DNA from: Sulfuricella denitrificans
Lineage (GTDB): Bacteria; Pseudomonadota; Gammaproteobacteria; Burkholderiales; Sulfuricellaceae
Length of the DNA: 64,000 nt
Reading direction: 5' to 3'
Assembly: GCA_002632355.1 (NCBI GenBank)
Contig: NSJJ01000012.1
Span: 1 to 64,000, forward strand
Positions 31,883-46,750 of the stretch are shown here, in pieces. Every line of letters starts with the position of its first letter. The stretch's first letter is position 1. A program made the position numbers and the translations under genes. The notes under the pieces were generated by a model that had not been told where the DNA came from, did no database searches, and worked only from the letters and a program-made list of their open reading frames with translations.

Positions 31883-33673
31883 TTGGAAAACTGCCCCTCC
31901 TGCAAACTCTGGCTCTTTCGTGTTTTTCCCTTCCTGCGCTGGTGGCCGATGGTCAACCGTAGTTCGGCCAAATCAGACCTGATCGCCGGTATCACCGGCG
32001 CCATGATCGTGCTGCCGCAGGGTGTAGCCTTTGCCACCATTGCAGGCATGCCCCCCGAATACGGACTTTACGCCGCCATGGTGCCGGCTATCATTGCTGC
32101 TCTGTTCGGCTCCAGCTGGCACCTGGTGTCAGGTCCTACCACTGCAATTTCAATTGCAGTGTTTGCTGCAGTAAGCAATCTGGCGCCACCGGGTTCACCG
32201 CAGTTTGTCAGCATGGTATTGACACTGACCTTTCTCACCGGCCTGTTTCAGCTCATTCTCGGATTGGCGCGCATGGGCGTACTGGTCAACTTCATTTCCC
32301 ATACGGTGGTGATCGGCTTTACCGCCGGTGCGGCATTGCTAATTGCCGCGAGTCAGGTGAAAAGTTTTTTTGGCATTGCAATCGAGCGGGGATCGCATTT
32401 CCACGTCGTAATCGAGCAGCTTTTTCTGCAAATTGGCAACCTCAACCCCTATGTCACGTCTGTCGGCGTGGTCACATTGGCAACGGGGATCCTGTCCAAA
32501 AAATTCATTCCCAAATTTCCCTATATGATCGTCGCTATGGTGGCCGGCAGTATTGTGGCCTACCTCATCAACATGGAATTCGGCGCAGAGGTCACAAAGA
32601 TCAAGACGGTGGGTGCACTGCCTTCTCATTTGCCGCCACTTTCCCTGCCTGACTTTTCCTATGGCACGATTCACAAGGTCATTTTCCCGGCGCTGGTGGT
32701 CACCATGCTTGCGTTGACAGAAGCCGTGTCCATTAGCCGTGCCATTGCCACAAGGTCGGAGCAGCGCATCGACGGCAACCAGGAGTTCATCGGCCAGGGA
32801 CTGGCCAACCTGATCGGCAGCTTCTTCTCCGGTTATGCTTCCGCTGGCTCTTTCAACCGCAGCGGCGTCAACTATGCCTCAGGTGCACAAACACCGCTTG
32901 CAACAGTTTACGCCTCGATTTTCCTGGTACTGATACTGCTGCTGGTCGCCCCGCTCGCCTCATATCTCCCGAATGCTGCCATGGCGGGCATTCTGTTCCT
33001 GGTCGCGTGGGGTCTGATCGATTTTCATCACATCGCCGCCATCGGGAAGACCAGCAAAGCCGAGACCGTGGTGTTGTGGGTAACCTTGCTAGGCACTCTG
33101 GTTGATCTGGAGAAAGGCATTTTCTTCGGTATTCTGCTTTCGCTCACCCTTTACCTCTATCGCGTCTCCCGCCCCGCAATCAACCCAGAGGTGCCGGCAA
33201 AAGAGGAAGGCGCTTACCACCTCATGGATGCCCACGGCCATCACGAATGCCCGCAATTCCGCATCGTGCGCATCAACGGCTCGATTTTCTTCGGTGCTGT
33301 CGATCATATACAGAACAGTCTGCTGCAAATCGACGAAGCCAATCCGGACCAGAAAACGGTGATGATCGTTGCCAGCGGCATCAATTTTATCGATGTGGCA
33401 GGCGCGGAAATGCTGGCCCAGGAAGCACGCCGCCGTCGCAAATTGGGTGGTGGTCTGTATTTCTACCGCTGCAAGGATTCCATCAAAAAATTCCTGCGCA
33501 AGTCCGACAAACTGGATGACATCGGCGAGGGTGGATTTTTTCCTGCCATGTCGAACTGGATTCATCCGATTTATGACACGCTTAACCCCGAAATCTGCCG
33601 TACCTGCAAGTACCGCATTTTCAGTGAATGTCACAAACGCCTGCCGGGCGGCGAATTGAGAACCGAACCATGA
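31883..33673 (+). CDS. SulP family anion transporter 1 with STAS domain, probable bicarbonate transporter
   Basis: A 596-residue SLC26/SulP transporter. Core signatures are ITGAMIVLPQGVAFATIAGMPPEYGLYAAMVPAIIAALFGSS cut across helices 1-3, and FSGYASAGSFNRSGVNYASGA near helix 10. A STAS domain follows (about residues 455-560, VRINGSIFFGAV, VIVASGINFIDVAGAEML). The extreme C-terminus carries CRTCKYRIFSECH, a Cys-rich tail not usual for SulP. Start TTG 31883 has AGGA 7 bases before it. The stop overlaps the carbonic anhydrase ATG (ATGA), which argues for bicarbonate as substrate. Sulfate is the alternative, since chromate genes lie next door. Confidence 0.88.
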   Translation: MENCPSCKLWLFRVFPFLRWWPMVNRSSAKSDLIAGITGAMIVLPQGVAFATIAGMPPEYGLYAAMVPAIIAALFGSSWHLVSGPTTAISIAVFAAVSNLAPPGSPQFVSMVLTLTFLTGLFQLILGLARMGVLVNFISHTVVIGFTAGAALLIAASQVKSFFGIAIERGSHFHVVIEQLFLQIGNLNPYVTSVGVVTLATGILSKKFIPKFPYMIVAMVAGSIVAYLINMEFGAEVTKIKTVGALPSHLPPLSLPDFSYGTIHKVIFPALVVTMLALTEAVSISRAIATRSEQRIDGNQEFIGQGLANLIGSFFSGYASAGSFNRSGVNYASGAQTPLATVYASIFLVLILLLVAPLASYLPNAAMAGILFLVAWGLIDFHHIAAIGKTSKAETVVLWVTLLGTLVDLEKGIFFGILLSLTLYLYRVSRPAINPEVPAKEEGAYHLMDAHGHHECPQFRIVRINGSIFFGAVDHIQNSLLQIDEANPDQKTVMIVASGINFIDVAGAEMLAQEARRRRKLGGGLYFYRCKDSIKKFLRKSDKLDDIGEGGFFPAMSNWIHPIYDTLNPEICRTCKYRIFSECHKRLPGGELRTEP

Positions 33674-34230
33674 TACGAAAAAACCCCAGTGGTGATTTGC
33701 CATTCATCCACGAATCCGCCTATGTGGACAATACGGCCATACTTTGCGGCAAGATCGTCGTCGAGGAAAACGTCTTCATCGGCCCCTATGCCGTGATCCG
33801 CGCCGATGAAGTCAATGAACTGGGCGAGATGGAAGCCATCATCATTGGCGCCAACTCCAACATTCAGGATGGCGTAGTAATTCACTCCAAGGCGGGAGGT
33901 CTGGTCAAAATTGGCGCAAACACTTCAATTGCCCACCGCTCCATCGTGCATGGTCCGTGCATCGTCGGCGAAAATGTCTTTATTGGCTTCAACTCGGTGC
34001 TTTTTGACTGCCTGGTTGGCAATGGCTCGGTAGTGCGACATAACTCAGTCGTGGAACACTGCGAAATTCCAGAGAATTTTCATATTCCTTCCACCACCAA
34101 TGTCCACTCCAACCAGGAACTGAGCAACATCACCCAGGTTTCAGCGCAAGCCAGCGACTTCTCTGAATCAGTACTGAAAGCCAATCTCGAGCTGGTCAAA
34201 GGATATAAAAAACTGCAAAACGAGTTTTGA
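33670..34230 (+). CDS. Gamma-class carbonic anhydrase
   Basis: A 186-residue left-handed beta-helix protein of the CcmM/CamH group. Hexapeptide repeats are seen throughout (ENVFIGPYAVIRA, ANSNIQDGVVI, IGANTSIAHRSIVHGPCIVGENVFIGF). The three zinc-binding histidines are present as His72, His89 and His94, the last two five apart as in Cam, so it is probably catalytic. No acidic loop between the first two ligands, as in CcmM. Interconversion of CO2 and bicarbonate would link it to the SulP transporter encoded by the overlapping gene (ATGA). It has no RuBisCO-small-subunit-like tail. Confidence 0.9.
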   Translation: MIRKNPSGDLPFIHESAYVDNTAILCGKIVVEENVFIGPYAVIRADEVNELGEMEAIIIGANSNIQDGVVIHSKAGGLVKIGANTSIAHRSIVHGPCIVGENVFIGFNSVLFDCLVGNGSVVRHNSVVEHCEIPENFHIPSTTNVHSNQELSNITQVSAQASDFSESVLKANLELVKGYKKLQNEF

Positions 34231-34406: not shown

Positions 34407-36521
34407 ATGAATCAAATCGCTCGTTTTTTTCCTTTCCTGAGCTGGTTTCCATCAAACCGGGAAAATATCAAAGCCGATTTGATCGCCGGCCTCACCGTTG
34501 CGCTGGTTCTCATTCCCCAATCCATGGCCTACGCCCAACTGGCTGGCCTTCCCCCTTATTACGGCCTTTATGCCTCGTTCCTGCCGGTGATGATCGCCGC
34601 CATGTGGGGTTCGTCGGCCCAGCTTGCCACCGGTCCGGTAGCTGTGGTTTCACTGCTGACCGCATCAGCCCTGGCCCCACTTGCCGCAGTCGGCTCCGAT
34701 CAATTCGTCGCGCTGGCCATTCTCCTCGCCCTGCTGGTGGGATGTATTCAACTCCTGCTCGGCCTGTTCAAGCTTGGCGTGATCGTCAACTTTCTTTCCC
34801 ACCCGGTCATTGTCGGCTTTACCAATGCTGCCGCCATCATTATCGGCCTGTCCCAGCTCAACAAGATTTTTGGCGTATCGATGGGGCGCAGTGAACACTT
34901 CATCAATGATATCTGGGGTGTAGTGCAACAGATTGGTGATACCCACATCCCGACCCTGATCATGGGTGTTGCTGCCTTTGCCATCATGTGGGGCCTGAAG
35001 AAATACCTGCCCAAGCTTCCTGGCGTACTGATTGCAGTCGCAATTACTACGGCAGTCAGCTGGGCCATCGGCTTCGAACAGAATGCCAAGGTAAAAGTCG
35101 ATCAACTGATGGACCCTGACGTTCTCGACGTAGTCGAGCGAGTCGCCCAGAGCGATGCCAGAATCGTTGCAATCAACAATCAGATCAGCACCCGTTCGAT
35201 CCGTATCAAAAAACTTGAGAAAGATCCAGGTGATAATGATCGCCTTGTTGCCGCACTGCACTACGAGATCGACCTGTTGCAGAACACGCTCAAGGATATT
35301 GAAGACGAAAACGTCAAAGCGCGGCGTACAGCGCGCAAATTCGTGCTGGAAATGGTGCCCGCCAGCGAAAGCCAGCCCGCCAGACTTTACCTGAAAAGCC
35401 GAACCCCTGATGGCGCAACATCCGATGGCCACCGCTGGCGCATCAGGAAAATCAGCAATGGTGAGCTCAAGCTCTCCGGCGGCGGGGAAGTAGTAGGCAG
35501 CATTCCATCCGGCCTGCCCCGCATGGAAGTGCCAAAACTGAACTCGGAAAGCATTATGGCCCTGCTCAGCAGCGCCCTGGTCATCTCGCTGGTTGGCTTC
35601 ATGGAAGCCATTTCCATCGCCAAGGCCATCGCCGCCAAGACCAAGCAGCGCCTCGACCCGAGCAAGGAACTGGTTGGTCAGGGTATCGCCAACATCGTCG
35701 GCAGCTTCAGCCAGGCTTTCCCGACATCCGGCTCGTTCTCGCGCTCGGCAGTCAACATGAATGCTGGCGCCAAGACCGGAATGTCTTCCGTCTTCACCGG
35801 ACTGATCGTACTGGTTACCCTGCTGTTCCTCACCCCGCTGCTGTACCACCTGCCGCAAGCGGTGCTGGCCGCAGTGATCATGATGGCGGTCATCGGACTG
35901 GTTAATTTCAAGGCCATCAAGCACGCCTGGCATGCGCACAAGCATGATGGCGCTGCTGCGATCGTCACATTTGTCGCCACCCTGGCTTTTGCGCCTCATC
36001 TCGATAATGGCATCATGATTGGTGCCGGTCTCGCCATTATTCTTTACCTCTACCGCACCATGTCCCCCCGTGTCGCCATTCTTGGCCGCTACCAGGACGG
36101 ATCCCTGCGCGACATCAGTGTGCACAAAGATCTGCCAACCGACGAAAATATCATCGTGTTGCGATTCGACGGCTCCCTATATTTCGCCAACGTACCTTTT
36201 TTTGAAGATGCCATTCTGGAAGCGGCTGCCAACAAGCCGAATGCAAAATATCTTGTGGTGGTAGGCGATGGCATCAACGAGCTCGATGCCTCTGGCGAGG
36301 AAGTCATCCACCATCTGGTGGAGCGTCTGCACGGCGTCGGCATGATTATGGTGTTCACCGGACTGAAGAAACAGGTGATCGACGTCATGCGCCATACCGG
36401 ACTGTTCGACCTGATTACACAGAACAACATCTTTGCTACCCAGGCCCAGGCCTTTGAAGCCATTTACAACTGCCTGGGTACGAACGAAGGCGCCTTCTGC
36501 CAGCTCCGCCGTCAGACATGA
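34407..36521 (+). CDS. SulP family anion transporter 2 with large cytoplasmic-type insert and STAS domain
   Basis: A 704-residue SulP protein. Helices 1-3 read IAGLTVALVLIPQSMAYAQ and LPPYYGLYASFLPVMIAAMWGSS, and the late core has FSQAFPTSGSFSRSAVNMNAGA. Between the membrane segment ending near residue 225 and that starting near 375 there is an extra stretch of about 130 residues (229-361), highly charged, with a heptad-like coiled-coil portion (about 245-310, ISTRSIRIKKLEKDPGDN) and a basic beta-like part. STAS occupies about 590-695. It precedes the DAB-like genes by 60 bases, so it is probably co-expressed with them for bicarbonate uptake. Confidence 0.87.
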   Translation: MNQIARFFPFLSWFPSNRENIKADLIAGLTVALVLIPQSMAYAQLAGLPPYYGLYASFLPVMIAAMWGSSAQLATGPVAVVSLLTASALAPLAAVGSDQFVALAILLALLVGCIQLLLGLFKLGVIVNFLSHPVIVGFTNAAAIIIGLSQLNKIFGVSMGRSEHFINDIWGVVQQIGDTHIPTLIMGVAAFAIMWGLKKYLPKLPGVLIAVAITTAVSWAIGFEQNAKVKVDQLMDPDVLDVVERVAQSDARIVAINNQISTRSIRIKKLEKDPGDNDRLVAALHYEIDLLQNTLKDIEDENVKARRTARKFVLEMVPASESQPARLYLKSRTPDGATSDGHRWRIRKISNGELKLSGGGEVVGSIPSGLPRMEVPKLNSESIMALLSSALVISLVGFMEAISIAKAIAAKTKQRLDPSKELVGQGIANIVGSFSQAFPTSGSFSRSAVNMNAGAKTGMSSVFTGLIVLVTLLFLTPLLYHLPQAVLAAVIMMAVIGLVNFKAIKHAWHAHKHDGAAAIVTFVATLAFAPHLDNGIMIGAGLAIILYLYRTMSPRVAILGRYQDGSLRDISVHKDLPTDENIIVLRFDGSLYFANVPFFEDAILEAAANKPNAKYLVVVGDGINELDASGEEVIHHLVERLHGVGMIMVFTGLKKQVIDVMRHTGLFDLITQNNIFATQAQAFEAIYNCLGTNEGAFCQLRRQT

Positions 36522-36581
36522 TTCCGGAAAATACATCAACGCCATCTCTCAAGACAGGCGGCATGGAATTCTGATACAGGT

Positions 36582-38033
36582 ATGCTGAGGATACTTCTTC
36601 TTATGCCCATCCTGGGCGCGGTTATCATTGCACTGCTGCCCACGGCCAACCCGCGCCTGATCCGCTTTTCCGCTCTCCTTGCTGCGGGCGGCGCCATGGG
36701 CATGGCATGGGGATTGCTAACCCAGTTCGACCCTGCCATAGCCGGCATCCAGCTATTTGAGACTCACGTATGGAATCCGCGACTGGGCAGCGCATTTTCC
36801 CTCGGGGTGGACGGCTTTTCTTTTCCCATGGTGCTGCTCGGCACACTGCTTACCGTTGTCACTATCCTTGCTTCCAGCTGCATCGCAAAACATGTCAGAG
36901 GCTATTTTGCGCTGATCCTGCTGCTGGAATCCGGCATGCTGGGTGTATTCATGGCACGAGACTGGTCATTGTTCTACGTGTTCTGGGAGCTGACCCTGAT
37001 CCCGCTTTTTTTCCTCATTGACCGCTGGGGTGGCGCAAACAAGCACCGCGCAGCGCTGAATTTCGTGCTTTACACCATGGGTGGCTCGGTATTCATGCTG
37101 GTCGCCCTGTTGCTGCTATACGACGCCAATCCCGGCCACAGCTTCGATATCGCCTCCATTGCACAGGGTGCGCGCACCCTGACTCAGGAAGCACAGATAC
37201 TGATCTTCCTCGGCCTGCTGATCGGCTTTGGCGTCAAGGTCCCGATCTTCCCGCTTCACGGCTGGCTGCCACTGGCCTACGTGGAAGCGCCTAGCCCTAT
37301 CCCTATCCTGCTCTCGGGCATTCTTGCCAAGATGGGAAGCTACGGCCTGATTCGCGCCGCCGAAATGCTGCCGCTGGCGGTACAGGCGCTGCAGGGCTGG
37401 CTTGCCGCTTTAGGCATGATCAGCATGATTTATGGCGGAGTGCTGGCCTGGCACCAGCGCGACCTGAAAAAAATGGTGGCCTACTCTTCCATGTCCCACA
37501 TGGGTGTTGTACTGCTGGGCATCGCCACGCTGAATGAAGCCGGGCTCACGGGCGCAGTAATGCAGATGGTAGCTCACGGGCTGGTGGCCGGCTCTCTGTT
37601 CCTGCTCATCGGTCTGCTCTACGAACGGACCCATACGCGTGACATCGCCGACTACAGCTCGCTGGTGCAAGTCATGCCGCGCTTTGCCTTTTTTAGCGTA
37701 CTGGCACTGGTCGCCGCAGTAGGTTTTCCCGGCACTGCAGGCTTTGTTGCGGAAATTCATGTTCTTGTCGGCGGTTTTGCACGCTGGAGTGGTTGGGTCA
37801 TCATTCTGTCCCTCAGCGTACTGATCAGTGCCGCCTACGCCTTCAGGACAGTAGGGCGGCTATTTACCGGGCCGGTGCGCGAGGAAATGCGTCAGATTCC
37901 CGACCTGAGTCGGGCCGAATTTGCTGCAGTCGGCGTGCTTGCCAGCGGCATCCTGTTGGTGGGCATATTTCCTACAGCGGTACTGGGGCTGATTTCAGCC
38001 TCGGTCAAGCATTTGAGCAAGGCATTTGCCTGA
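36582..38033 (+). CDS. NuoM-like antiporter subunit, DAB locus subunit 1
   Basis: A 483-residue membrane protein of the complex I / Mrp antiporter family with about fourteen helices. Key proton-path residues remain: Glu136 in FYVFWELTLIP, Lys219 in GVKVPIFPLHGWLP, and the Lys of LLSGILAKMGSYGLIR, with helix-breaking HG and AP motifs. No complex I peripheral-arm genes are present anywhere nearby, so this is not respiratory complex I. It lies 1 base upstream of dabA in the same direction, after the SulP 2 gene. It probably provides a cation-coupled path for the DAB machine; this is inference. Confidence 0.85.
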   Translation: MLRILLLMPILGAVIIALLPTANPRLIRFSALLAAGGAMGMAWGLLTQFDPAIAGIQLFETHVWNPRLGSAFSLGVDGFSFPMVLLGTLLTVVTILASSCIAKHVRGYFALILLLESGMLGVFMARDWSLFYVFWELTLIPLFFLIDRWGGANKHRAALNFVLYTMGGSVFMLVALLLLYDANPGHSFDIASIAQGARTLTQEAQILIFLGLLIGFGVKVPIFPLHGWLPLAYVEAPSPIPILLSGILAKMGSYGLIRAAEMLPLAVQALQGWLAALGMISMIYGGVLAWHQRDLKKMVAYSSMSHMGVVLLGIATLNEAGLTGAVMQMVAHGLVAGSLFLLIGLLYERTHTRDIADYSSLVQVMPRFAFFSVLALVAAVGFPGTAGFVAEIHVLVGGFARWSGWVIILSLSVLISAAYAFRTVGRLFTGPVREEMRQIPDLSRAEFAAVGVLASGILLVGIFPTAVLGLISASVKHLSKAFA

Positions 38034-38034
38034 C

Positions 38035-41000
38035 ATGCACTCAGACGACATGGACAAGGATATCCGCGCCCGTTTGCTCGAACTGATGCATCATTTCGAG
38101 CACGTCCTTCCTGCACAGGCTCCAATCCGGGATTTCGTCCATCACAATACACTGCACGGCTTTCAGCACCTGCCTTTCGATCAGGCGCTCGCAACCGCGC
38201 GCAAGCTGACCGGCGCCCAGGGCTACCTCCCCGAAGAACGCTACCGTGCCTGGTTTGCGGAGGGCCGCATCACTCATGAGGACCTGGTTGCAGCACTGGA
38301 TAGCATGGTGCAGCTCGATGCCGCTGCTGTTGTCGTTGAAACCAACTCCGGCCCGCTAACCCGCCGTGATGTTTTGATACCAGGCCTGCTTCACTCGTTC
38401 AAGCGACTGTCACGCAGCCAGCTCAAATGGCAGGTCGAGGAACTGAAAGCGCTGGATCGTTTCCAGCCCACGATAAGTGACAATGCCAGAAGCCGCCTGC
38501 TTGCAGCCGGTGCGGATGAAAAATCCGCATTGAACCAGCTGTGGACTGCCTGTCTTGCGACTCTGGGGCTGGAGCATGAACTGCGCCACCCGGAGGAACT
38601 GCTCAATCCCTCACCCGACCACGTTCAGGCACTGGCAGCTCACATTGCAGCGGAAACCGGTCACTCCGGCGACGGCCCCTTGGTCGAACGACTGATACGC
38701 AAGGATGCAATACATCTACTCGACAGCCTGCTGGACAAGGTGGGAAGCGAATGGACTTTGCGCGGCCTGCTGCTGGCCCTGACCGGCGAAGATCTGATGG
38801 ACGACGTCAGGCCACTGTTGATTCGCTATCTTTCCGCTCACCTCGACCATGGCATGGCTGCGTGGCACAACCCGGCCCGGTCAAAAGGGTTCTACGCCGC
38901 CTGCCGCGAAAGTGCTGAAAACGATCTGTCCTGGGTACTCAACGACCTTTCCGACTGGCGCATGCTGGCCGATCGCCTGCCATCGGACCCGGTCGACACC
39001 ATCATTCAGGAATTGCGCCTGTTCGGCCTGCCGGAGGATCGCTGGGAAGGCTATCTGGAACGGCTTGCGCTGGAGATTCCAGGTTGGTCCGGCATGGCTT
39101 TGTGGCGCCACAATCATCCAGGTTACGGCGCCATGACCACGCCGGTTAACATGATGGACTACCTCGCCGTGCGACTGGTTCTGGAGCGTCTTTTCGCCCA
39201 GCGCTTGTGCCGCCGCCACTGGAGAGTCGAGGCCACGCTCTCGGCTCTGCGCTGGTATTTCCGCCATCTTCCGGCTGAACTGGTGGTGCGCCACGCCCTG
39301 TTCGAAGGCCGCATGCCGGAATATCTCATCAGCTTCGCAGAGCAGCTTACACGCGAAGCGCCCAACCGCAAGGAAAATATCCACGACGAAGGCTGGCAGA
39401 CCATGGCCCAGCTGCTGTGGAGCTGGCAGCAGACCCCTGCCGGCGACCGACGCGGCGGTGTCAGCGTTTCCGGGTCCGCTTGGCCGCTGTTCTGTCTTGC
39501 CCAGCATCTCGGCCTGACGGGCAACGACATCACGGGCATGGGACGCGCCGGGGTGGATGCCCTGCTCGACAACCTTACACTGCTGGATAGCGATCAACGC
39601 GGTCATGTCTGGCTGCTGGCTTACGAACGCAATTACCGCGAGCAGATATTTTCCGCCCTCACGGCCAATCACCAGCGCGGGCCGTGGAAGACACGCGAAA
39701 ACCTGCCCGAAGCCCAGCTGGTTTTCTGTCTGGATGACCGCGAGGAAGGCCTGCGCCGCCATGTAGAAGAAGTCAATCCACGGCTTGAAACGCTGGGCGC
39801 AGCAGCCCATTACGGCATTTTCATGAACTGGCGCGGGCTGGACGATAAAGAAGCAGGTCCACTGTGCCCGGTCATTCCCGTGGTCATCATTCCGGCCCAT
39901 GAAGTCAGGGAAATTGAAAAAGCAGGATATGAACGACAACGCGAGACGCATGATCAGCGTCATGATTTGCGCATGCGCTGGGCCAGGCGCCTGCATCAGG
40001 ATACGCGCCGCGGCCTGATCCTGCCGGCGCTGCTGGCTGCTGCCGCTGCGCCAGCAGCGCTGGCCGTGCTGGGTGGAAAGCTGCTGGCGCCTGCGCGCAT
40101 GGGACAATGGGCAAAAAAACTCGCTGCTACGTTCGACCGGCCCATTCCCACCCGTGTCGCCCTGACTGCTCCCGCCGACAGTCCCGCCGCAACGCCGGAA
40201 TCCCCCCGGCTCGGCTTTACCGACAGCGAGCAGGTCGAACGCATGTACGGATTCCTGCGCGGCATGGGCCTGGCATCCGGTTTTGCGCCGCTGGTTGTCA
40301 TCGCAGGCCACGGCTCTAACAGCCAGAACAACCCGCACATGGCCGCCTATGACTGCGGCGCCTGCTCTGGCCGACACAGCGGCCCCAATGCACGGACTTT
40401 CGCCGCCATGGTCAACCGCCCTGAAATTCGGGCGCAACTGGCAGCAAAGGGCATCAGCATCCCCGACACTACCTGGTTCCTTGCAGCAGAACACAATACC
40501 TGCGACGACATCGTGACCTGGTACGATGAAGATCTTGTTCCAGAAGCGCTGCAGACCGCCTTTGCCAAACTTCAGGAGGAAGTGGCGCAAGCCGCCCGCC
40601 TTCATGCACAGGAACGCTGCCGCCGTTTCGCCTCTGCTCCCGACAACCTCCCCCTGAGGAAAGCCTGGCACCACATCCAGAATCGTCGTCATGACTTCTC
40701 GCAGCCGCGCCCGGAACTGGGACACGCCACCAATGCCTGCGCTTTCATAGGGCGGCGTTCCATGAGCCGTGGAGCGTTCTTCGACCGGCGCGCTTTCCTG
40801 ATTTCATACGACACGACCATCGACCCGGAAGGGCTGATCCTCGAGCGACATTTGCTGATCAACGGCCCGGTGGGTGCAGGGATTTCGCTCGAGTACTATT
40901 TTTCCATGGTGGATAACGAATACTACGGCTGCAGCAGCAAGATCATGCACAACATCTCAGGTCTGTTCGGCGTCATGGAGGGCGCGTCTTCCGACCTGCG

Positions 41001-41331
41001 TACCGGCCTGCCACGCCAGATGATCGAGATCCACGAACCGATGCGCCTGCTGGTGGTTGTTGAGGCAAAAACAGAGCTCATCACTGCCATCTACCAGCGT
41101 CAGCCGGCATTGCAGGAACTGGTCGGCAAGGAATGGATGGTGGTCGCAGCCAAGGACCCGGACAGCACCGATATTCAACTTTTTGATCCCGCCAGGGGAT
41201 GGCTGCCGTGGAAAGGAAACATGGAAACCTTGCCCTCCGTGGAACGCTCCCTCGACTGGTTCGCTGGCAAACGTGATCCGCTCCCTCCCGCGCTGTTGCA
41301 ACAGCCGGTCACAATGGAGGTTGGAACGTGA
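38035..41331 (+). CDS. dabA: DabA, beta-carbonic-anhydrase-like subunit of the inorganic-carbon accumulator (DUF2309)
   Basis: A 1098-residue DUF2309/UPF0753 protein. In Halothiobacillus, DabA captures CO2 and hydrates it one-way to bicarbonate, energised by its membrane partner DabB. The zinc site reported there (C351, D353, H524, C539) is conserved: Cys565 and Asp567 in VFCLDDREEG, His759 in VIAGHGSNSQNNP and Cys774 in YDCGACSGRHSGPNA, with identical 2- and 15-residue spacings. The zinc site lies about 210 residues further from the N-terminus, so this is a long form. ATG 38035 follows the subunit-1 stop by one base. The end overlaps the NuoL-like start (GTGA). Confidence 0.95.
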   Translation: MHSDDMDKDIRARLLELMHHFEHVLPAQAPIRDFVHHNTLHGFQHLPFDQALATARKLTGAQGYLPEERYRAWFAEGRITHEDLVAALDSMVQLDAAAVVVETNSGPLTRRDVLIPGLLHSFKRLSRSQLKWQVEELKALDRFQPTISDNARSRLLAAGADEKSALNQLWTACLATLGLEHELRHPEELLNPSPDHVQALAAHIAAETGHSGDGPLVERLIRKDAIHLLDSLLDKVGSEWTLRGLLLALTGEDLMDDVRPLLIRYLSAHLDHGMAAWHNPARSKGFYAACRESAENDLSWVLNDLSDWRMLADRLPSDPVDTIIQELRLFGLPEDRWEGYLERLALEIPGWSGMALWRHNHPGYGAMTTPVNMMDYLAVRLVLERLFAQRLCRRHWRVEATLSALRWYFRHLPAELVVRHALFEGRMPEYLISFAEQLTREAPNRKENIHDEGWQTMAQLLWSWQQTPAGDRRGGVSVSGSAWPLFCLAQHLGLTGNDITGMGRAGVDALLDNLTLLDSDQRGHVWLLAYERNYREQIFSALTANHQRGPWKTRENLPEAQLVFCLDDREEGLRRHVEEVNPRLETLGAAAHYGIFMNWRGLDDKEAGPLCPVIPVVIIPAHEVREIEKAGYERQRETHDQRHDLRMRWARRLHQDTRRGLILPALLAAAAAPAALAVLGGKLLAPARMGQWAKKLAATFDRPIPTRVALTAPADSPAATPESPRLGFTDSEQVERMYGFLRGMGLASGFAPLVVIAGHGSNSQNNPHMAAYDCGACSGRHSGPNARTFAAMVNRPEIRAQLAAKGISIPDTTWFLAAEHNTCDDIVTWYDEDLVPEALQTAFAKLQEEVAQAARLHAQERCRRFASAPDNLPLRKAWHHIQNRRHDFSQPRPELGHATNACAFIGRRSMSRGAFFDRRAFLISYDTTIDPEGLILERHLLINGPVGAGISLEYYFSMVDNEYYGCSSKIMHNISGLFGVMEGASSDLRTGLPRQMIEIHEPMRLLVVVEAKTELITAIYQRQPALQELVGKEWMVVAAKDPDSTDIQLFDPARGWLPWKGNMETLPSVERSLDWFAGKRDPLPPALLQQPVTMEVGT

Positions 41332-42881
41332 ACAAGTTACTTGAACTGGCACCCAGACTGGCCTGGCTGATTCCCCTGTTACCCCTGTTGGGCGCAGCAG
41401 GTATTGCCCTGCGTATTCTCGGCGGACACGACAAGGGGGATCTGGCTGAATTTCCCAGTGCGCGTATCGCCATTTCTTGCACTGGATCCGCGCTGTTGCT
41501 GCTGCTTGGCCTTGACGTTCTCGCTATCGTCATGGGTGTACCGGACCATGTACGCAGTGGCGTATGGTTTTCCAGCGGCTCCGTTGTCCTGCCTCTCAGC
41601 TTCACCCTTGATGCGCTGTCGCTCTCCATCGCCACGCTGGTCGCCTTTATTGCCACTCTTACCCTGCAGTTTTCCCGCAACTACCTGCACCGTGAAGCCG
41701 GGTTCCACCGATTTTTCTTCGGCATGTGTCTATTTACCGCAGGGATGCTGCTGATTGTATTGTCGGGCAATGTTGCACTGACTTTCGTCGGCTGGGAGAT
41801 GGCCGGCATCAGTTCGTGGATGCTGATCGGCTATGCTTATGATCGCCCCACCGCCAGTATCAATGCGCTGCGTGCGATTGTCACCAACCGCATCGGCGAT
41901 GCCGGTTTTATCCTCGGCATTTCGCTGGCATTCATCTGGCTCGGCAGCGTGGAATGGTCTGATGTGCTACATGCCAACCAGCTTGGTACGCTCTCCGCCG
42001 GTTTGCTGGCGCTTGGTTTCGTGGTGGCCTCTCTGGCCAAATCGGCACAGGTGCCATTCTCGCCCTGGATCGCCCGCGCGCTGGAAGGCCCGACGCCTTC
42101 CTCTGCCATTTTCTACGGCGCCCTGATGGTGCACGCCGGCGTGTATTTACTAATCCGTATGGAACCTCTGCTACGCCAGGCGCCCGCCCTCATGTCCCTG
42201 ATCGCCATATTGGGGTTGCTCACCGCGCTGTATGGCTATTTCAGCGGTCTTACCCAGGCTGATGTAAAAAGCGCACTGATGTTCGCCACCACCACCCAGG
42301 TCGGACTGATGTTCCTGGCCTGCGGAATGGGATGGTTCACGCTCGCCTCCTGGCACCTTGGACTGCATGCCAGCTGGCGCGCCTGGCAGTTCCTCGCCTC
42401 ACCTTCATACATGCACCTGATGGGCGGCCCGACACGCGCCGCTCCCTCATGGCTGCGCAACAGACAAAGCCTCTACACTGCCGCGATGCAGCGCTTCTGG
42501 CTGGAGCCCTTGAGCGACTGGCTTCTGGTGCGGCCGACTCGCCAGATGGCGCGTGACGTACGCAATCTGGACGACAACGTGATCAGCCGCCTGGTTGGCC
42601 TGCCGGAATCCGCTGGTGTCCCGGCCTTTCTTGTCGCGAGCGGAGAAGAAATGAACCGGGATGAAGTGGTGCGCGGTAGCGGGCTTGCCGGCGCATTTCT
42701 GGAGTGGCTTGCACTCAAATTGCACCGCTTCGAATCACGCCTGCTGTTCCAGGGCGGCAACAGCCTTCTGAGCCGCACACTGGCAAAGGTGGGAACCTAT
42801 CTGCTGGCAATGGAAAACCTGCTATCTCAGCCGCGCTATCTGCTACTGCTGATCATGGCAACCATGGTGGTGATTATCTAA
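41328..42881 (+). CDS. dabB: NuoL-like membrane subunit, DabB
   Basis: A 517-residue NuoL/MrpA-related protein, the type that partners DabA. Conserved elements are Glu157 in FVGWEMAGISSWMLIGYAYDR, Lys238 in VVASLAKSAQVPFSPWIARALEGPTPSS, and the Lys in GLTQADVKSALMFATTTQVG. After about residue 345 the transmembrane core ends and a long C-terminal segment of amphipathic and soluble character follows (to one last helix near 505), so the later channel Lys of NuoL and its lateral helix are missing. GTG 41328 overlaps dabA (GTGA), with GGAGG upstream. Coupling to dabA and the family identify it as DabB. Confidence 0.88.
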   Translation: MNKLLELAPRLAWLIPLLPLLGAAGIALRILGGHDKGDLAEFPSARIAISCTGSALLLLLGLDVLAIVMGVPDHVRSGVWFSSGSVVLPLSFTLDALSLSIATLVAFIATLTLQFSRNYLHREAGFHRFFFGMCLFTAGMLLIVLSGNVALTFVGWEMAGISSWMLIGYAYDRPTASINALRAIVTNRIGDAGFILGISLAFIWLGSVEWSDVLHANQLGTLSAGLLALGFVVASLAKSAQVPFSPWIARALEGPTPSSAIFYGALMVHAGVYLLIRMEPLLRQAPALMSLIAILGLLTALYGYFSGLTQADVKSALMFATTTQVGLMFLACGMGWFTLASWHLGLHASWRAWQFLASPSYMHLMGGPTRAAPSWLRNRQSLYTAAMQRFWLEPLSDWLLVRPTRQMARDVRNLDDNVISRLVGLPESAGVPAFLVASGEEMNRDEVVRGSGLAGAFLEWLALKLHRFESRLLFQGGNSLLSRTLAKVGTYLLAMENLLSQPRYLLLLIMATMVVII

Positions 42882-44387
42882 ATGATCGTTAACGAAATTC
42901 ACTGGACCCAGCAGGCCGCCTATCCCATCCTCGGCATGCTGCAACTAGTACCACTACTGGGCGCCGGTTTGGTGCTACTCCTCGGCGAGCAGCGTAACAC
43001 GGTGGTCATAGGCCGGGGGATTGCACTGATCGAGCTACTGCTGGCGATCGATCTGTTCGGCACCATCAAGGCTGCTTCTCCCGGCCTGCAGCTGGCGGAA
43101 AGACTGGTTCTGCTTGACCCCTTCGCCTATCACGCTGCAGCCGACGGCATTACCGTGCTGTTCGTCCTGCTTACTGCGTTGCTGGTGCTGCTGCTTACCA
43201 TTTACAGCCTGGTGCGCGGACTGGCCGATCCGGGGCGTCTGCTGGCAGTGATACTGGCTGCAGAGAGCGTACTGATGTCTCAACTGGTTACCACCAATCT
43301 GTTGTGGTTCGTGCTCGCCTCCCTGCTGGAACTGGGTCTGGTCGGCTACCTGCTGTGGAACTGGGCCACCTCGCCGGAAAAAGACATGATGCTGGCGCGC
43401 TTCTACCAGTTCCAGGGTACCGGACTGCTGCTGATGCTGATCGGCACCATGCTGCTGGGCTGGTTTCACGCAGAGGCAACCGGAGGCAACTGGAGTTTTG
43501 AACTGGCTGACCTGAGCACCGTGCCCACCAGCGGAACAGTCGGTTCGGTCATTTTCTTTTTTCTGTTTTTCGGTTTTGGCATCCGCACACCGATCTTTCC
43601 CCTGCACGGCTGGCTGCCCTGGGTCGCACAGCACGGCAACGTCGCCATTGCTCCCGCCCTTCTCCTTGGCATCAAGGTCGGCATCTACGGTCTGGTGCGT
43701 TTCGTGTTTCCCATTCTTCCGGGTGCGGTGGTGCAATGGAGCAGTTTCGCTGTGGCATTTGCGGCGACAGGGGTTTTTTATGCGGCCTTCCTCGCCTTTC
43801 TGCAAAGTGATTTGCGCCGTCTGATGGCCTTCGCAGTGGTGAGCCATACCGGCCTGCTGATCATCGGCCTGTTTTCCCTGCAAGCCGAAGGCTTCCAGGG
43901 CAGCATTCTGCTGGCGGTCAATTTCGGCCTGGCCATGACGGTCATGCTGTTCATCGTCGGTTTTGTCTACCGCCGGACCCGAACCACTGTTCTCGACCAA
44001 CTGGGCGGCCTGTTCGACCGCATCCCTTTCATCGGTGCAAGTTTTCTGCTTGGCGGCCTGGCAATTGTAGGCATGCCAGGCACGCCTGGGTTCGATGCAG
44101 CTCACTTGCTGCTGGAGGCTTCCATCGAACGTCTCGGCGCTCTGCTCACCGTGGCGGTAGCTCTGGGCAACGTACTGGCAGCGGGTTTTCTGCTATGGGC
44201 CTTCCAGCGTGCCTTCCTCGCACCACGTAGCGAAGGGTCAAGAGGCGGCGCTATCGAACGCACACTGCCCATGGAATATCTGGTGGCCGGCAGTGCCGTG
44301 GCCGTGCTGCTCATCGCCGGTTTCTATCTCGAACCCTGGATGAAGCTGATTGAAGCGCCCCTGCATGCGCTCGCGGAAAGATTTTGA
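42882..44387 (+). CDS. NuoM-like antiporter subunit with Lys-to-Arg change, DAB locus subunit 3
   Basis: A 501-residue membrane protein, about fourteen helices. The glutamate of helix 5 is kept (Glu150 in LASLLELGLVGYLLW) and so is the Lys in LLLGIKVGIYGLVRF, but the helix 7 lysine of the proton path is Arg235 (FGIRTPIFPLHGWLPWV). The following segment reads AQHGNVAIAP in place of the usual acidic A/T-E-A/G-P. The ATG abuts the preceding stop (TAAATG), so it is in one transcription unit with dabAB. It may be a catalytically modified or structural antiporter subunit; the biochemical consequence is not known. Confidence 0.8.
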   Translation: MIVNEIHWTQQAAYPILGMLQLVPLLGAGLVLLLGEQRNTVVIGRGIALIELLLAIDLFGTIKAASPGLQLAERLVLLDPFAYHAAADGITVLFVLLTALLVLLLTIYSLVRGLADPGRLLAVILAAESVLMSQLVTTNLLWFVLASLLELGLVGYLLWNWATSPEKDMMLARFYQFQGTGLLLMLIGTMLLGWFHAEATGGNWSFELADLSTVPTSGTVGSVIFFFLFFGFGIRTPIFPLHGWLPWVAQHGNVAIAPALLLGIKVGIYGLVRFVFPILPGAVVQWSSFAVAFAATGVFYAAFLAFLQSDLRRLMAFAVVSHTGLLIIGLFSLQAEGFQGSILLAVNFGLAMTVMLFIVGFVYRRTRTTVLDQLGGLFDRIPFIGASFLLGGLAIVGMPGTPGFDAAHLLLEASIERLGALLTVAVALGNVLAAGFLLWAFQRAFLAPRSEGSRGGAIERTLPMEYLVAGSAVAVLLIAGFYLEPWMKLIEAPLHALAERF

Positions 44388-44389
44388 AC

Positions 44390-45853
44390 ATGCCCCTGTT
44401 AAGCCTGCTTTTCCTCACTCTGCCACTTGGCGCCGCACTTACCTGGCTATTGCCGCGCCCGGAATGGGCAAAACGCATTGCCCTCGCAACAGCCCTGATA
44501 GATCTGGCCATTGCACTGGCCGTCGTGATCAGCTTCGATCCCAGCCAGCCCGGATTTCAGCTGGTTGAGCAGGCGCGCTGGATTCCCAGCCTCAATATCC
44601 AGTATCTGGTGGGTGTGGATGGAATTTCCCTGCTGTTTCTGCCATCCAGCATCCTGCTGTTCATCGGCGTCATTCTGGCCTCATGGAACAGTGTCACCAC
44701 TTTGCCGCGCCTTTACTACAGCCTGCTGCTGGTGCTGGAAACAGCAACCCTGGGCATTTTCTGCTCGCTCGACACCATGCTGTTTTTCTTTTTCTGGGAA
44801 CTGTCGCTGATTCCGATCTACTTTCTGGTCAGCCTGTGGGGTATGGGACCAAACCGGCGTTATGCCGCAGTCAAATACATTCTGGTCATGGTGGCCGGCG
44901 GCGTCCCGTTACTATTTGGCTTCATCCTGCTCGCCTTCGGTCATGCGACGAATGGAGGTGAACTGGTATTTGATCTGCCTACGCTACTGGCAACGCCGCT
45001 GCCTGCCAAAATGCAACTTGCGGTGTTCCTGCTGCTGCTGCTCGGTTTTGCCGTCAAGATCCCAGTCTTTCCGCTCCATACCTGGTTGCCGCTGGTGGCT
45101 ATGGAAGGCCCGGCAGCCGTCATCGCACTGCTGGTTGGCATTAAACTTGGCGCCTATGGCTTGATCCGTTTCGCCATTCCGCTGGCACCAGAAGCAGCAC
45201 AGCAGATGCACTGGCTGCTAGTAGCGCTTGGAACAGTGGGCGTGATATACGGTGCGATCGCTGCGCTGGCACAGACCAACCTGCGCAGAATGCTGGCTTA
45301 TGCCAGCCTGTCGCATGTGGGACTGGTGGTGTTGGGGATCGCCTCTTTCGACCTGCAGGGATTGCAGGGATCGGTGCTGCAATTGCTCAATTTCACCCTG
45401 GCCGCAGGCGGCGGCTTCCTGCTCATCAGCGCCCTCCACCATCGCATCGGCTCGACCGACCTGTTGAGTCTGGGCGGCGCAGCACGCTCAATGCCCTTAC
45501 TGGCGAGTTTTTTTCTGCTGTTCGGTTTCACTGGCATGGGAATGCCGGGAACCAGCGGCTTTCCTGCTGAACTGCTGATTCTGATTTCGATTTTCAATCA
45601 CCATATTGGTGCCGGGCTTGCAGCTCTGTTCTCCATGGTGCTGGGTGCAGCCTATTTCCTCGGCCTCTACCGTCAGGCTTTCTTCGGCCCGGCCACCAAC
45701 CCGGTCGTGGCGGATGCAATGGACCTTCGGCCACGCGAACTGGGCATAGCCATGCTGTTCGCACTGATCATTCTGATCGTCGGTTTTTATCCCGCTGCAG
45801 TGCTGGATGTGATTCAACCCGCAGGTGAGGCTTGGGCGGCAAGGCTGAAATAG
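44390..45853 (+). CDS. NuoM-like antiporter subunit, DAB locus subunit 4
   Basis: A 487-residue membrane protein with fourteen or so helices. The canonical residues are present: Glu137 in FFWELSLIPIYFLVSLWG, Lys223 in GFAVKIPVFPLHTWLPLVAMEGP, and Lys in VGIKLGAYGLIRFA. LGGAARSMPLLASFFLLFGFTGMGMPGTSGF matches the second half of NuoM, close to the discontinuous helix 12. ATG 44390 lies 2 bases past the subunit-3 stop; a TTG at 44384 overlaps that stop and is the alternative start. It ends the carbon locus, converging with era after 3 bases. With subunits 1 and 3 it makes three NuoM-type partners for DabA/DabB. Confidence 0.85.
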   Translation: MPLLSLLFLTLPLGAALTWLLPRPEWAKRIALATALIDLAIALAVVISFDPSQPGFQLVEQARWIPSLNIQYLVGVDGISLLFLPSSILLFIGVILASWNSVTTLPRLYYSLLLVLETATLGIFCSLDTMLFFFFWELSLIPIYFLVSLWGMGPNRRYAAVKYILVMVAGGVPLLFGFILLAFGHATNGGELVFDLPTLLATPLPAKMQLAVFLLLLLGFAVKIPVFPLHTWLPLVAMEGPAAVIALLVGIKLGAYGLIRFAIPLAPEAAQQMHWLLVALGTVGVIYGAIAALAQTNLRRMLAYASLSHVGLVVLGIASFDLQGLQGSVLQLLNFTLAAGGGFLLISALHHRIGSTDLLSLGGAARSMPLLASFFLLFGFTGMGMPGTSGFPAELLILISIFNHHIGAGLAALFSMVLGAAYFLGLYRQAFFGPATNPVVADAMDLRPRELGIAMLFALIILIVGFYPAAVLDVIQPAGEAWAARLK

Positions 45854-45856
45854 CTG

Positions 45857-46750
45857 TTATTCGTAGCCCAGGCTTTTCAACGCACGTTCATCATCTGCCC
45901 AGCCGCCCTTGACCTTGACCCAGATTTCCAGATAAACCTTGCTGTCGAACAGCTTTTCCATATCCTTGCGCGCCTGGGTGCCGATTTCCTTGAGGCGCTC
46001 ACCCTTGTTGCCGATCAGGATTGGTTTCTGGCTTTCCCGATCAACGATAATGGCCGCAAAAATCCGGCGCAGATTGCCGGCCGTTTCAAATTTCTCGATT
46101 TCGACGCTAACCGAATAAGGTACTTCGTCACCGGAAAGGCGAAATACTTTTTCGCGCACGATTTCAGCGGCAAGAAAGCGTTCGCTGCGATCGGTAATCT
46201 CATCCTCGCCGTAAACCGCCGTCCCATCCGGCAAATGGCGCCTGATTTCAACCAGCAGTTCATCCAGCTGCGTCCCCCCCTTGCGGGCACTGAGCGGAAC
46301 TGAAGCTGCGAAAGGAAACAGAGCGGCCATTTTCTCGATGAAAGGCAGCAGTTTTTCCTTGTCCTCGACGCGATCGATCTTGTTGAGCACCAGCAGTACC
46401 GGCTGGTTACGCGGCAGCAAGGCCAGCACTTTCTCGTCACGCTCATCGAAGCGCAAGGCTTCAACCACGAAGAGGACCACATCCACATCTGACAGCGCCT
46501 GCGTCACGGTTCGGTTCATCACCCGGTTCAGGGCGCTCTGGTGCTGCGTCTGGAATCCGGGGGTATCCACGAAGATATACTGCGTGTCTGCATCGGTGCG
46601 GATGCCAGTGATGCGATGACGAGTCGTCTGGGCCTTGCGGGAAGTAATGCTGACCTTCTGGCCGATCAGGTGATTGAGCAGTGTTGATTTGCCGACATTG
46701 GGGCGACCCACAATGGCGATATAACCGACCTTGACTGAATTTTCATTCAT
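45857..46750 (-). CDS. era: GTPase Era
   Basis: A 297-residue ribosome-assembly GTPase that binds the 3' end of 16S rRNA. G motifs: G1 GRPNVGKS, G3 VDTPG, G4 NKID. The C-terminal KH domain contains [25 protein letters not shown] 46750 begins [14 protein letters not shown]; residues further upstream overlap rnc. Its start overlaps the rnc stop by 8 bases in the standard lepB-DUF4845-rnc-era order. Confidence 0.97.

Follow-up and report, generated by a model that had tools for sequence, protein, structure and literature searches.

Closest described systems

DAB2 of Halothiobacillus neapolitanus (DabA2-DabB2, PDB 9rd0; PMC13144422) is among the described systems closest to the locus analysed here, a five-gene unit, M1-DabA-DabB-M2-M3, on a 64,000-nucleotide stretch of Sulfuricella denitrificans DNA (‘the window’; GenBank assembly GCA_002632355.1, contig NSJJ01000012.1, positions 1 to 64,000). 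The zinc site and a NuoL-type DabB are common to both. DAB2 consists of two subunits (a three-subunit DAB1 is also mentioned), with a DabB of 15 transmembrane helices (TM) carrying Ile151, and a ‘finger’ of DabA enters DabB, where Glu444 replaces NuoL residues at the periplasmic half-channel; activity is abolished by E444A or E444Q and impaired by H260A and K347A, and I151E halves the growth yield (PMC13144422). In the five-gene unit, by contrast, DabA precedes DabB, DabB is shortened and has Glu at the Ile151 position, and the finger Glu is missing.

The 2017 COGNAT paper (PMC5700660) described a ‘clade C’ of COG3002 in which, where ybcC (DabA) lies upstream of a nuoL homologue, SulP and NuoM genes are frequent neighbours, as in the window, and suggested that the number of ions follows the number of membrane subunits; neither the layout nor the subunit-number idea is thus first reported here. 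In the text consulted, additional files aside, clade C is presented without a NuoM gene count, residue analysis, fusion, dispersal or CO2 function, and SulP, a frequent neighbour there, falls outside the core in the five-gene loci (6/52). A NuoL-DUF2309 operon has also been described in Leptospirillum. In the literature searched, with most subscription papers outside it, no earlier account was found of the residue contrasts, the shortened DabB, the DabB::M2 fusion or the dispersed gene sets; new here are the invariant gene order, the dispersed sets, the fusion, the loss of the finger Glu and the changes in DabB.

The unit also resembles the complex I membrane arm (NuoL, NuoM, NuoN), in that the DabB model matches NuoL, M1-M3 group with NuoM, and M1 and M3 keep the channel residues. 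Complex I, however, has a redox arm, whereas no redox or other complex I genes lie beside the five-gene unit, in which DabA would be the catalytic arm and DabB lacks TM12-15. Cyanobacterial NDH-1MS is like the unit as proposed below in that complex I-like antiporters are coupled to CO2 hydration (PMC13144422). NDH-1MS is coupled to ferredoxin oxidation, while the five-gene unit has no redox subunits. The hydration subunit of NDH-1MS is Cup, not DabA. Mrp antiporters have PF00361 subunits in common with the unit, but small Mrp subunits are not found beside it.

The five-gene unit

Sequence comparison gives good support to a larger DabA complex distinct from both complex I and Mrp: gene order is invariant, genomes with a dispersed operon retain the parts, and some carry DabB and M2 as a single fused protein. 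The cluster is probably a larger proton-driven CO2 pump, in which the proton path of the two-part relative appears to have been traded for a four-protein membrane arm. Five open reading frames (ORFs) form a single tight unit, in the order M1-DabA-DabB-M2-M3, on one strand:

36582-38033, + strand: M1, NuoM-like antiporter subunit, 483 aa (Pfam and NCBIfam)
38035-41331, + strand: DabA, long form, β-carbonic-anhydrase-like zinc subunit (PF10070, 788 bits)
41328-42881, + strand: DabB, NuoL-like, shortened, 517 aa (Pfam; sequence and structure matches)
42882-44387, + strand: M2, diverged NuoM-like subunit, 501 aa (Pfam, NCBIfam)
44390-45853, + strand: M3, NuoM-like subunit (Pfam, NCBIfam)

A sequence-only reading of the window had placed a long DabA, a NuoL-like DabB and three NuoM-like proteins within 36582-45853, and the five ORFs are found there, all on the + strand, with Pfam assigning PF10070 to DabA (788 bits against a cut-off of 25) and Proton_antipo_M to the other four. 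The junctions are also as read there: TGA-C-ATG (1-base gap), a GTGA overlap between DabA and its adjoining NuoL-like partner, a TAAATG abutment, and TGA-AC-ATG (2-base gap). DabA probably starts at ATG 38035 and M3 at ATG 44390, the ORF list opening at TTG 38026 and TTG 44384, respectively; DabA residues are numbered from TTG 38026. NuoM is the best NCBIfam model for M1 and M3, both above its cut-off; M2 lies below it (259 vs 263.8 bits), and DabB is below the cut-offs of its best models (NuoL).

That reading had further claimed that no peripheral-arm complex I gene and no small Mrp gene lies beside the unit, which the ORFs, Pfam and NCBIfam matches of the flanks confirm. The five genes abut each other and their neighbours, with no room for small Mrp B, C, E, F or G genes, and an Mrp module was rejected, the small subunits not being beside the unit. 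A complex I fragment was likewise rejected, because the genome has its own complex I set and the unit has no redox genes; this separate set (three proteins beside other complex I genes on contig C33) adds to the four of the unit to give the genome's seven PF00361 proteins.

Sampling and sorting of loci

Samples (own genome counted in each) comprised relatives (61 genomes, 14 with a DabA match), a class-level set (321 genomes, 75 with a match; 80 regions examined) and a phylum-level set (398 genomes, 69 with a match), from which 20 loci were taken, selected for long DabAs, those with short DabAs being left out of the comparison. GTDB species genomes were scanned with two peptide patterns of the five-gene clade, giving 44 named loci. 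Scripted sorting of 138 loci on their best BLAST label gave 46 five-gene loci, 73 two-gene loci and 19 others, the last being contig ends and frameshifts plus L089, L128, L138 and L152; of the 20 phylum loci, added later, 18 are five-gene, and L173 and L180 belong to neither type. Five duplicate loci (L033, L035, L036, L038 and L085) were discarded. Four more (L111, L112, L145 and L154), which carry a fusion, bear a NuoM gene or are aberrant, were removed manually from the two-gene set. All four hand-removed DabBs carry Glu at the NuoL 144 position discussed below, so that the two-gene count for this residue would otherwise be 4/72 instead of 0/68. L128, a two-gene locus excluded by the script over nearby antiporter genes, matches the other two-gene loci in its residues, with His at position 144, Lys at 342 and the finger Glu.

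The final sets, with the window locus standing outside the first, are 60 complete five-gene loci, unevenly sampled (30 from the GTDB scan, 18 phylum, 8 class and 4 relative loci), and 68 two-gene DabB-DabA loci (61 class, 7 relative). DabA pairs at least 97% identical number none among the five-gene and one among the two-gene loci. The closest named contigs are one Nitrosomonadales, one Sulfurimicrobium, two ‘Gammaproteobacteria’ and one Sulfuricellaceae metagenome-assembled genome, with DabA identity of 73 to 88%.

Gene order, dispersal and fusion

The order M1-DabA-DabB-M2-M3 on a single strand is kept in 60/60 complete five-gene loci, a recurrence beyond chance, with median gaps of about -8, -4, 3 and -1 bases (starts guessed by homology). 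Free variation of the NuoM-like genes around DabA (DUF2309), which the sequence-only reading had named as telling against its idea, is therefore not seen in the five-gene clade. A same-strand SulP gene lies no more than 3 kb upstream in only 6 of the 52 five-gene loci with room, and SulP was rejected as a core part.

The strongest evidence for one system comes from broken operons. One genome (G134) has a lone DabA and an M1-DabB-M2-M3 run on a different contig. DabA of G522 likewise stands without antiporter genes around it, and a separate contig carries four genes that tree and BLAST identify as M1-M3-DabB-M2; G526, a 69%-complete genome of the same genus, has M3, DabB, M2 and a first antiporter gene truncated where the contig ends. 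In G128 and G259, of one genus, DabA lies beside a single DabB::M2 ORF of 1048 or 1052 aa, the two being 87.5% identical:

L111, 11290-14433: DabB::M2 fusion gene near DabA
L112, 3556-6711: DabB::M2 fusion gene near DabA

The M1 and M3 orthologues of these two genomes are single genes elsewhere in the genome. Four genomes in three genera thus retain all five parts after break-up of the operon, and where DabA has left, DabB remains with its membrane partners. These sequence patterns give good support to a probable assembly of the five products into one complex; coupling and stoichiometry we infer.

Dispersal also bears on an alternative that we regard as unlikely, in which an ordinary two-subunit DAB is co-transcribed with a separate Mrp-like M1-M3 exchanger serving the proton from CO2 hydration or pH/Na+ balance. 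The membrane genes of G134 and G522 do lie away from DabA, all four membrane proteins are PF00361 antiporter-like, and one outlying locus (L089, below) pairs DabA with an Mrp/Mbh-type module. However, when apart from DabA, DabB stays with M1-M2-M3, and in G128 and G259 it is joined to M2; both DabB and DabA lack parts of the DAB2 proton path (below), small Mrp-type genes are absent both among the five genes and immediately next to them, and M1-M3 group with NuoM, in a tree that held no Mrp reference.

Zinc site and finger of DabA

The following DabA features were located by comparison with DAB2:

39727-39741, + strand: zinc ligand Cys568 and the Asp570-Arg572 dyad (DAB2 C351, D353, R355)
40012-40086, + strand: ‘finger’ hydrophobic segment, residues 663-687 (predicted helix 666-687)
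40309-40365, + strand: zinc ligands His762 and Cys780 (DAB2 H524, C539)

The zinc ligands Cys568, His762 and Cys780 are each present in 60/60 five-gene loci and in the window, which also keeps both residues of the dyad (Asp 59/60, Arg 59/60). The best solved sequence match of the window DabA is DabA2 (9rd0_A, E 1.3e-66). Its predicted model (mean predicted local distance difference test score, pLDDT, 78) is nearest to carboxysomal β-carbonic anhydrases (Z 8.0-8.3); 9rd0_A is not among the model matches listed (Foldseek top 1000 chains; library to 2026-04-08), an absence that is hence uninformative.

At the DAB2 Glu444 position of the finger the window DabA has Ala. Glu is found here in 0/60 five-gene DabAs (one has Asp) vs 68/68 two-gene DabAs, and the aligned finger segment is without any acidic residue in 53 of the 60.

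Loss of a residue essential in DAB2 would fit a clade that no longer hydrates CO2, its DabA zinc site serving another reaction or the system carrying bicarbonate, with a membrane arm that moves Na+ or H+. Many of the loci are on Dechloromonas/Azonexus contigs, and Staphylococcus MpsAB has been proposed as a Na+/bicarbonate symporter (PMC13144422). This explanation seems distinctly improbable, given the complete conservation of the zinc ligands, the nearly invariant dyad and the β-carbonic-anhydrase-like DabA model; the window genome moreover has two PF00016 (RuBisCO large) genes, and the unit lies beside SulP and γ-carbonic-anhydrase-like genes.

A shortened DabB with a complex I-type glutamate

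By sequence, the five-gene DabB is not a DAB2-type DabB, and retains the coupling Glu of complex I, which is absent from two-gene DabBs. The window DabB fits complex I/NDH-1 subunits better (6hum_F, E 3.5e-60) than DabB2 (9rd0_B, E 1e-32), and differs from DabB2 at three notable positions:

41796-41798, + strand: DabB Glu157, equivalent to NuoL Glu144 (DAB2 Ile151)
42114-42116, + strand: DabB Tyr263, at the NuoL His254/DAB2 His260 position
42378-42380, + strand: DabB Arg351, at the NuoL Lys342/DAB2 Lys347 position

The NuoL Glu144 position holds Glu in 60/60 five-gene and 0/68 two-gene DabBs, the latter having 13 other residue types, His and Ile being commonest. At the His254 position Tyr (60/60 five-gene) stands against His (68/68 two-gene), and at the Lys342 position Arg (60/60) against Lys (68/68).

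The protein probably corresponds, on model and sequence matches, to NuoL TM1-11 plus a piece of the lateral helix, with no TM12-15. After TM11, five-gene DabBs have 0, 1 or 2 hydrophobic segments in 25, 33 and 2 loci, respectively (one in the window), whereas 66/68 two-gene DabBs have 3-4 and two over-long frames have 9 and 10. The DabB model (mean pLDDT 75; tail 424-478 largely <60) aligns with E. coli NuoL over 383 residues (Z 39.5; NuoL range 1-550). It matches complex I NuoL from its start, reaching NuoL residue 550-562 or NdhF 613, which is consistent with TM1-11 plus a lateral helix remnant, and a weak second sequence match of DabB also agrees with this arrangement.

Channel residues of M1, M2 and M3

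Among solved structures, M1 and M2 best match complex I subunit M; for M3 the top NCBIfam model is NuoM. Glu is found at the TM5 Glu position in DabB (60/60), M1 (59/60, one gap) and M3 (58/60, one gap and one Arg). M1 of the window has TM5 Glu136, TM7 Lys219, TM8 Lys250 and TM12 Glu391, and these are conserved across the five-gene loci (TM7 and TM8 Lys 59/60 each, with one gap; TM12 Glu 60/60). The window M3 likewise has all four channel residues (across the loci, TM7 Lys 58/60, TM8 Lys 59/60 and TM12 Glu 57/60, the rest being gaps and one Val).

M2 is differently patterned. The TM5 Glu place is occupied by Ala, Leu, Gly, Val, Thr, Ile, Phe, Met or, in one case, a gap, and has no acidic residue in 60/60 loci; the claim of the sequence-only reading that all NuoM/NuoL proteins keep the channel glutamate therefore fails for M2. 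An acidic residue does lie two residues on in TM5 in 39/60. The TM7 Lys is replaced by Arg in 60/60 (Arg235 in the window), the TM8 Lys is kept in 60/60 (Lys265), and the TM12 Glu place holds Ala, Val, Thr, Ile or His, with no acidic residue in 60/60. TM12 of M2 has conserved residues of its own, Asp in 59/60 (Asp405 in the window) and His in 60/60.

Complete proton channels are suggested for M1 and M3 alone, because M2 is without the canonical set and DabB is without TM12-15, with two residues important in DAB2 changed. The multi-channel idea that had been put forward therefore needs revision.

Trees and outlying loci

Trees were quick searches with Shimodaira-Hasegawa-like approximate likelihood ratio test (SH-aLRT) support, the DabA tree being midpoint-rooted. 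The five-gene loci form one clade in both the membrane-subunit and the DabA tree. M1, M2 and M3 each form one clade inside the NuoM group of the former (a tree without an Mrp reference), into which the orthologues treed from dispersed and fusion genomes also fall; M2 and M3 are joined in one group, which also takes in one diverged sequence. Union of five-gene and canonical DabBs in one clade is not rejected by the approximately unbiased test (p-AU 0.51), though not shown by it either, descent of the five-gene DabB from NuoL being the alternative, again on quick-search trees.

Some loci fit neither type. L154 (G308:C8) has DabA and a DabB of the Glu144 type; the four PF00361 hits of this genome (88% complete) are complex I's three plus DabB, whose long C-terminal extension has no match to hidden Markov models of M1, M2 or M3. 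L145 has DabA, a Glu144-type DabB and one very diverged NuoM. In L089 (G085:C1:74000-93000) a DabA (979-aa frame) with a finger Asp is flanked on one side by a SulP gene and on the other by an Mrp/Mbh-like module (MbhD/E, MnhB, NuoM, a NuoL-like protein of 696 aa, NuoM), the NuoL-like protein having Glu144, His254 and Lys342; this genome also carries a canonical two-gene DAB (L108). In the DabA tree the L089 sequence is placed next to the two-gene clade and close to the midpoint root, a position that permits, without showing, old multi-antiporter forms.

Two further arrangements were observed. In one genome (G232:C5, L076/L085) two two-gene DAB sets of different types lie close together, and L165 (G111:C89) and L168 (G085:C1:110000-127000) are three-gene clusters of NuoN-, NuoL- and NuoL/M-like antiporter proteins.

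Proposed working of the unit

With moderate confidence we read the five genes as one membrane complex, a proton-driven (vectorial) carbonic anhydrase with DabA as catalytic arm and DabB, M2, M1 and M3 as a complex I-like membrane arm. The sequence features that suggest this are the intact zinc site, the loss of the finger Glu and of DabB TM12-15, the two changed DabB channel residues, the coupling Glu that DabB retains, and the full sets of M1 and M3. Protons would flow into the cell by way of M1 and M3. A signal, carried by charge or conformation, would move laterally via M2 and the Glu/ion-pair network of DabB to DabA and there power the hydration of CO2 to bicarbonate in one direction, so that the whole would resemble complex I working in reverse.

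The direction of coupling might be reversed, with an exergonic step at DabA driving ion export, as proposed for COG3002 operons in 2017 (PMC5700660). Complex I homologues pump outward. The studied family member, though, takes up CO2 and is inhibited by uncoupler (PMC13144422), and we consider export very improbable.

Several points weigh against a vectorial carbonic anhydrase. M2 and DabB may have a purely structural role, the missing finger Glu could signal a changed function, and the Z of 8 for the DabA model is modest. The five-gene loci were partly chosen, the phylum sample being taken for long DabAs, and, since they form one clade, each diagnostic residue may represent one event. L154 implies that M1-M3 are not needed throughout the wider clade, and that Glu144 is not strictly tied to NuoM partners. 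The single PF00484 β-carbonic anhydrase gene of the window genome could waste pumped bicarbonate, and the literature searched yielded no CO2-hydration assay of the five-gene clade.

If the vectorial carbonic anhydrase is real, it may spend more protons per CO2 than the two-subunit DAB does, and so build a steeper bicarbonate gradient or work at low proton-motive force; one kind of CO2 pump could be built with two different proton paths; and some ‘NADH dehydrogenase subunit M’ annotations would be parts of CO2 pumps. Long-distance energy transfer by antiporter-like subunits is a central open question of complex I, and a natural complex with like membrane parts, in which a single zinc hydratase replaces the redox arm, would make coupling testable by a simple growth assay.

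More tentatively, the unit may represent a second architecture of energy-coupled CO2 hydration, a reversed complex I-like machine in which two NuoM-type channels act through a re-patterned M2 and a shortened DabB on a carbonic anhydrase without a proton path of its own. Under this possible but less secure scheme the multi-antiporter form may have arisen first, and the two-subunit DAB may derive from it by simplification, its proton path having moved into the DabA finger while the coupling Glu decayed.

Neighbouring genes

Upstream of the unit, on the same strand, lie:

31883-33673, + strand: second SulP/STAS transporter, neighbour
33628-34230, + strand: hexapeptide protein, neighbour, like the γ-carbonic-anhydrase-like domain of CcmM (125 bits against a cut-off of 550)
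34407-36521, + strand: SulP/STAS transporter, accessory, outside the core, ending 60 bases upstream of M1

The CcmM/γ-carbonic-anhydrase-like hexapeptide gene thus sits between two SulP genes, in a genome without detected carboxysome shell proteins; a carboxysome link was rejected, no PF00936 shell protein being found in the window genome. A promoter and terminator scan of 36300-46000 gave no more signals than shuffles. Downstream, era starts 3 bases past M3 on the opposite strand, followed on that strand by rnc, lepB and lepA.

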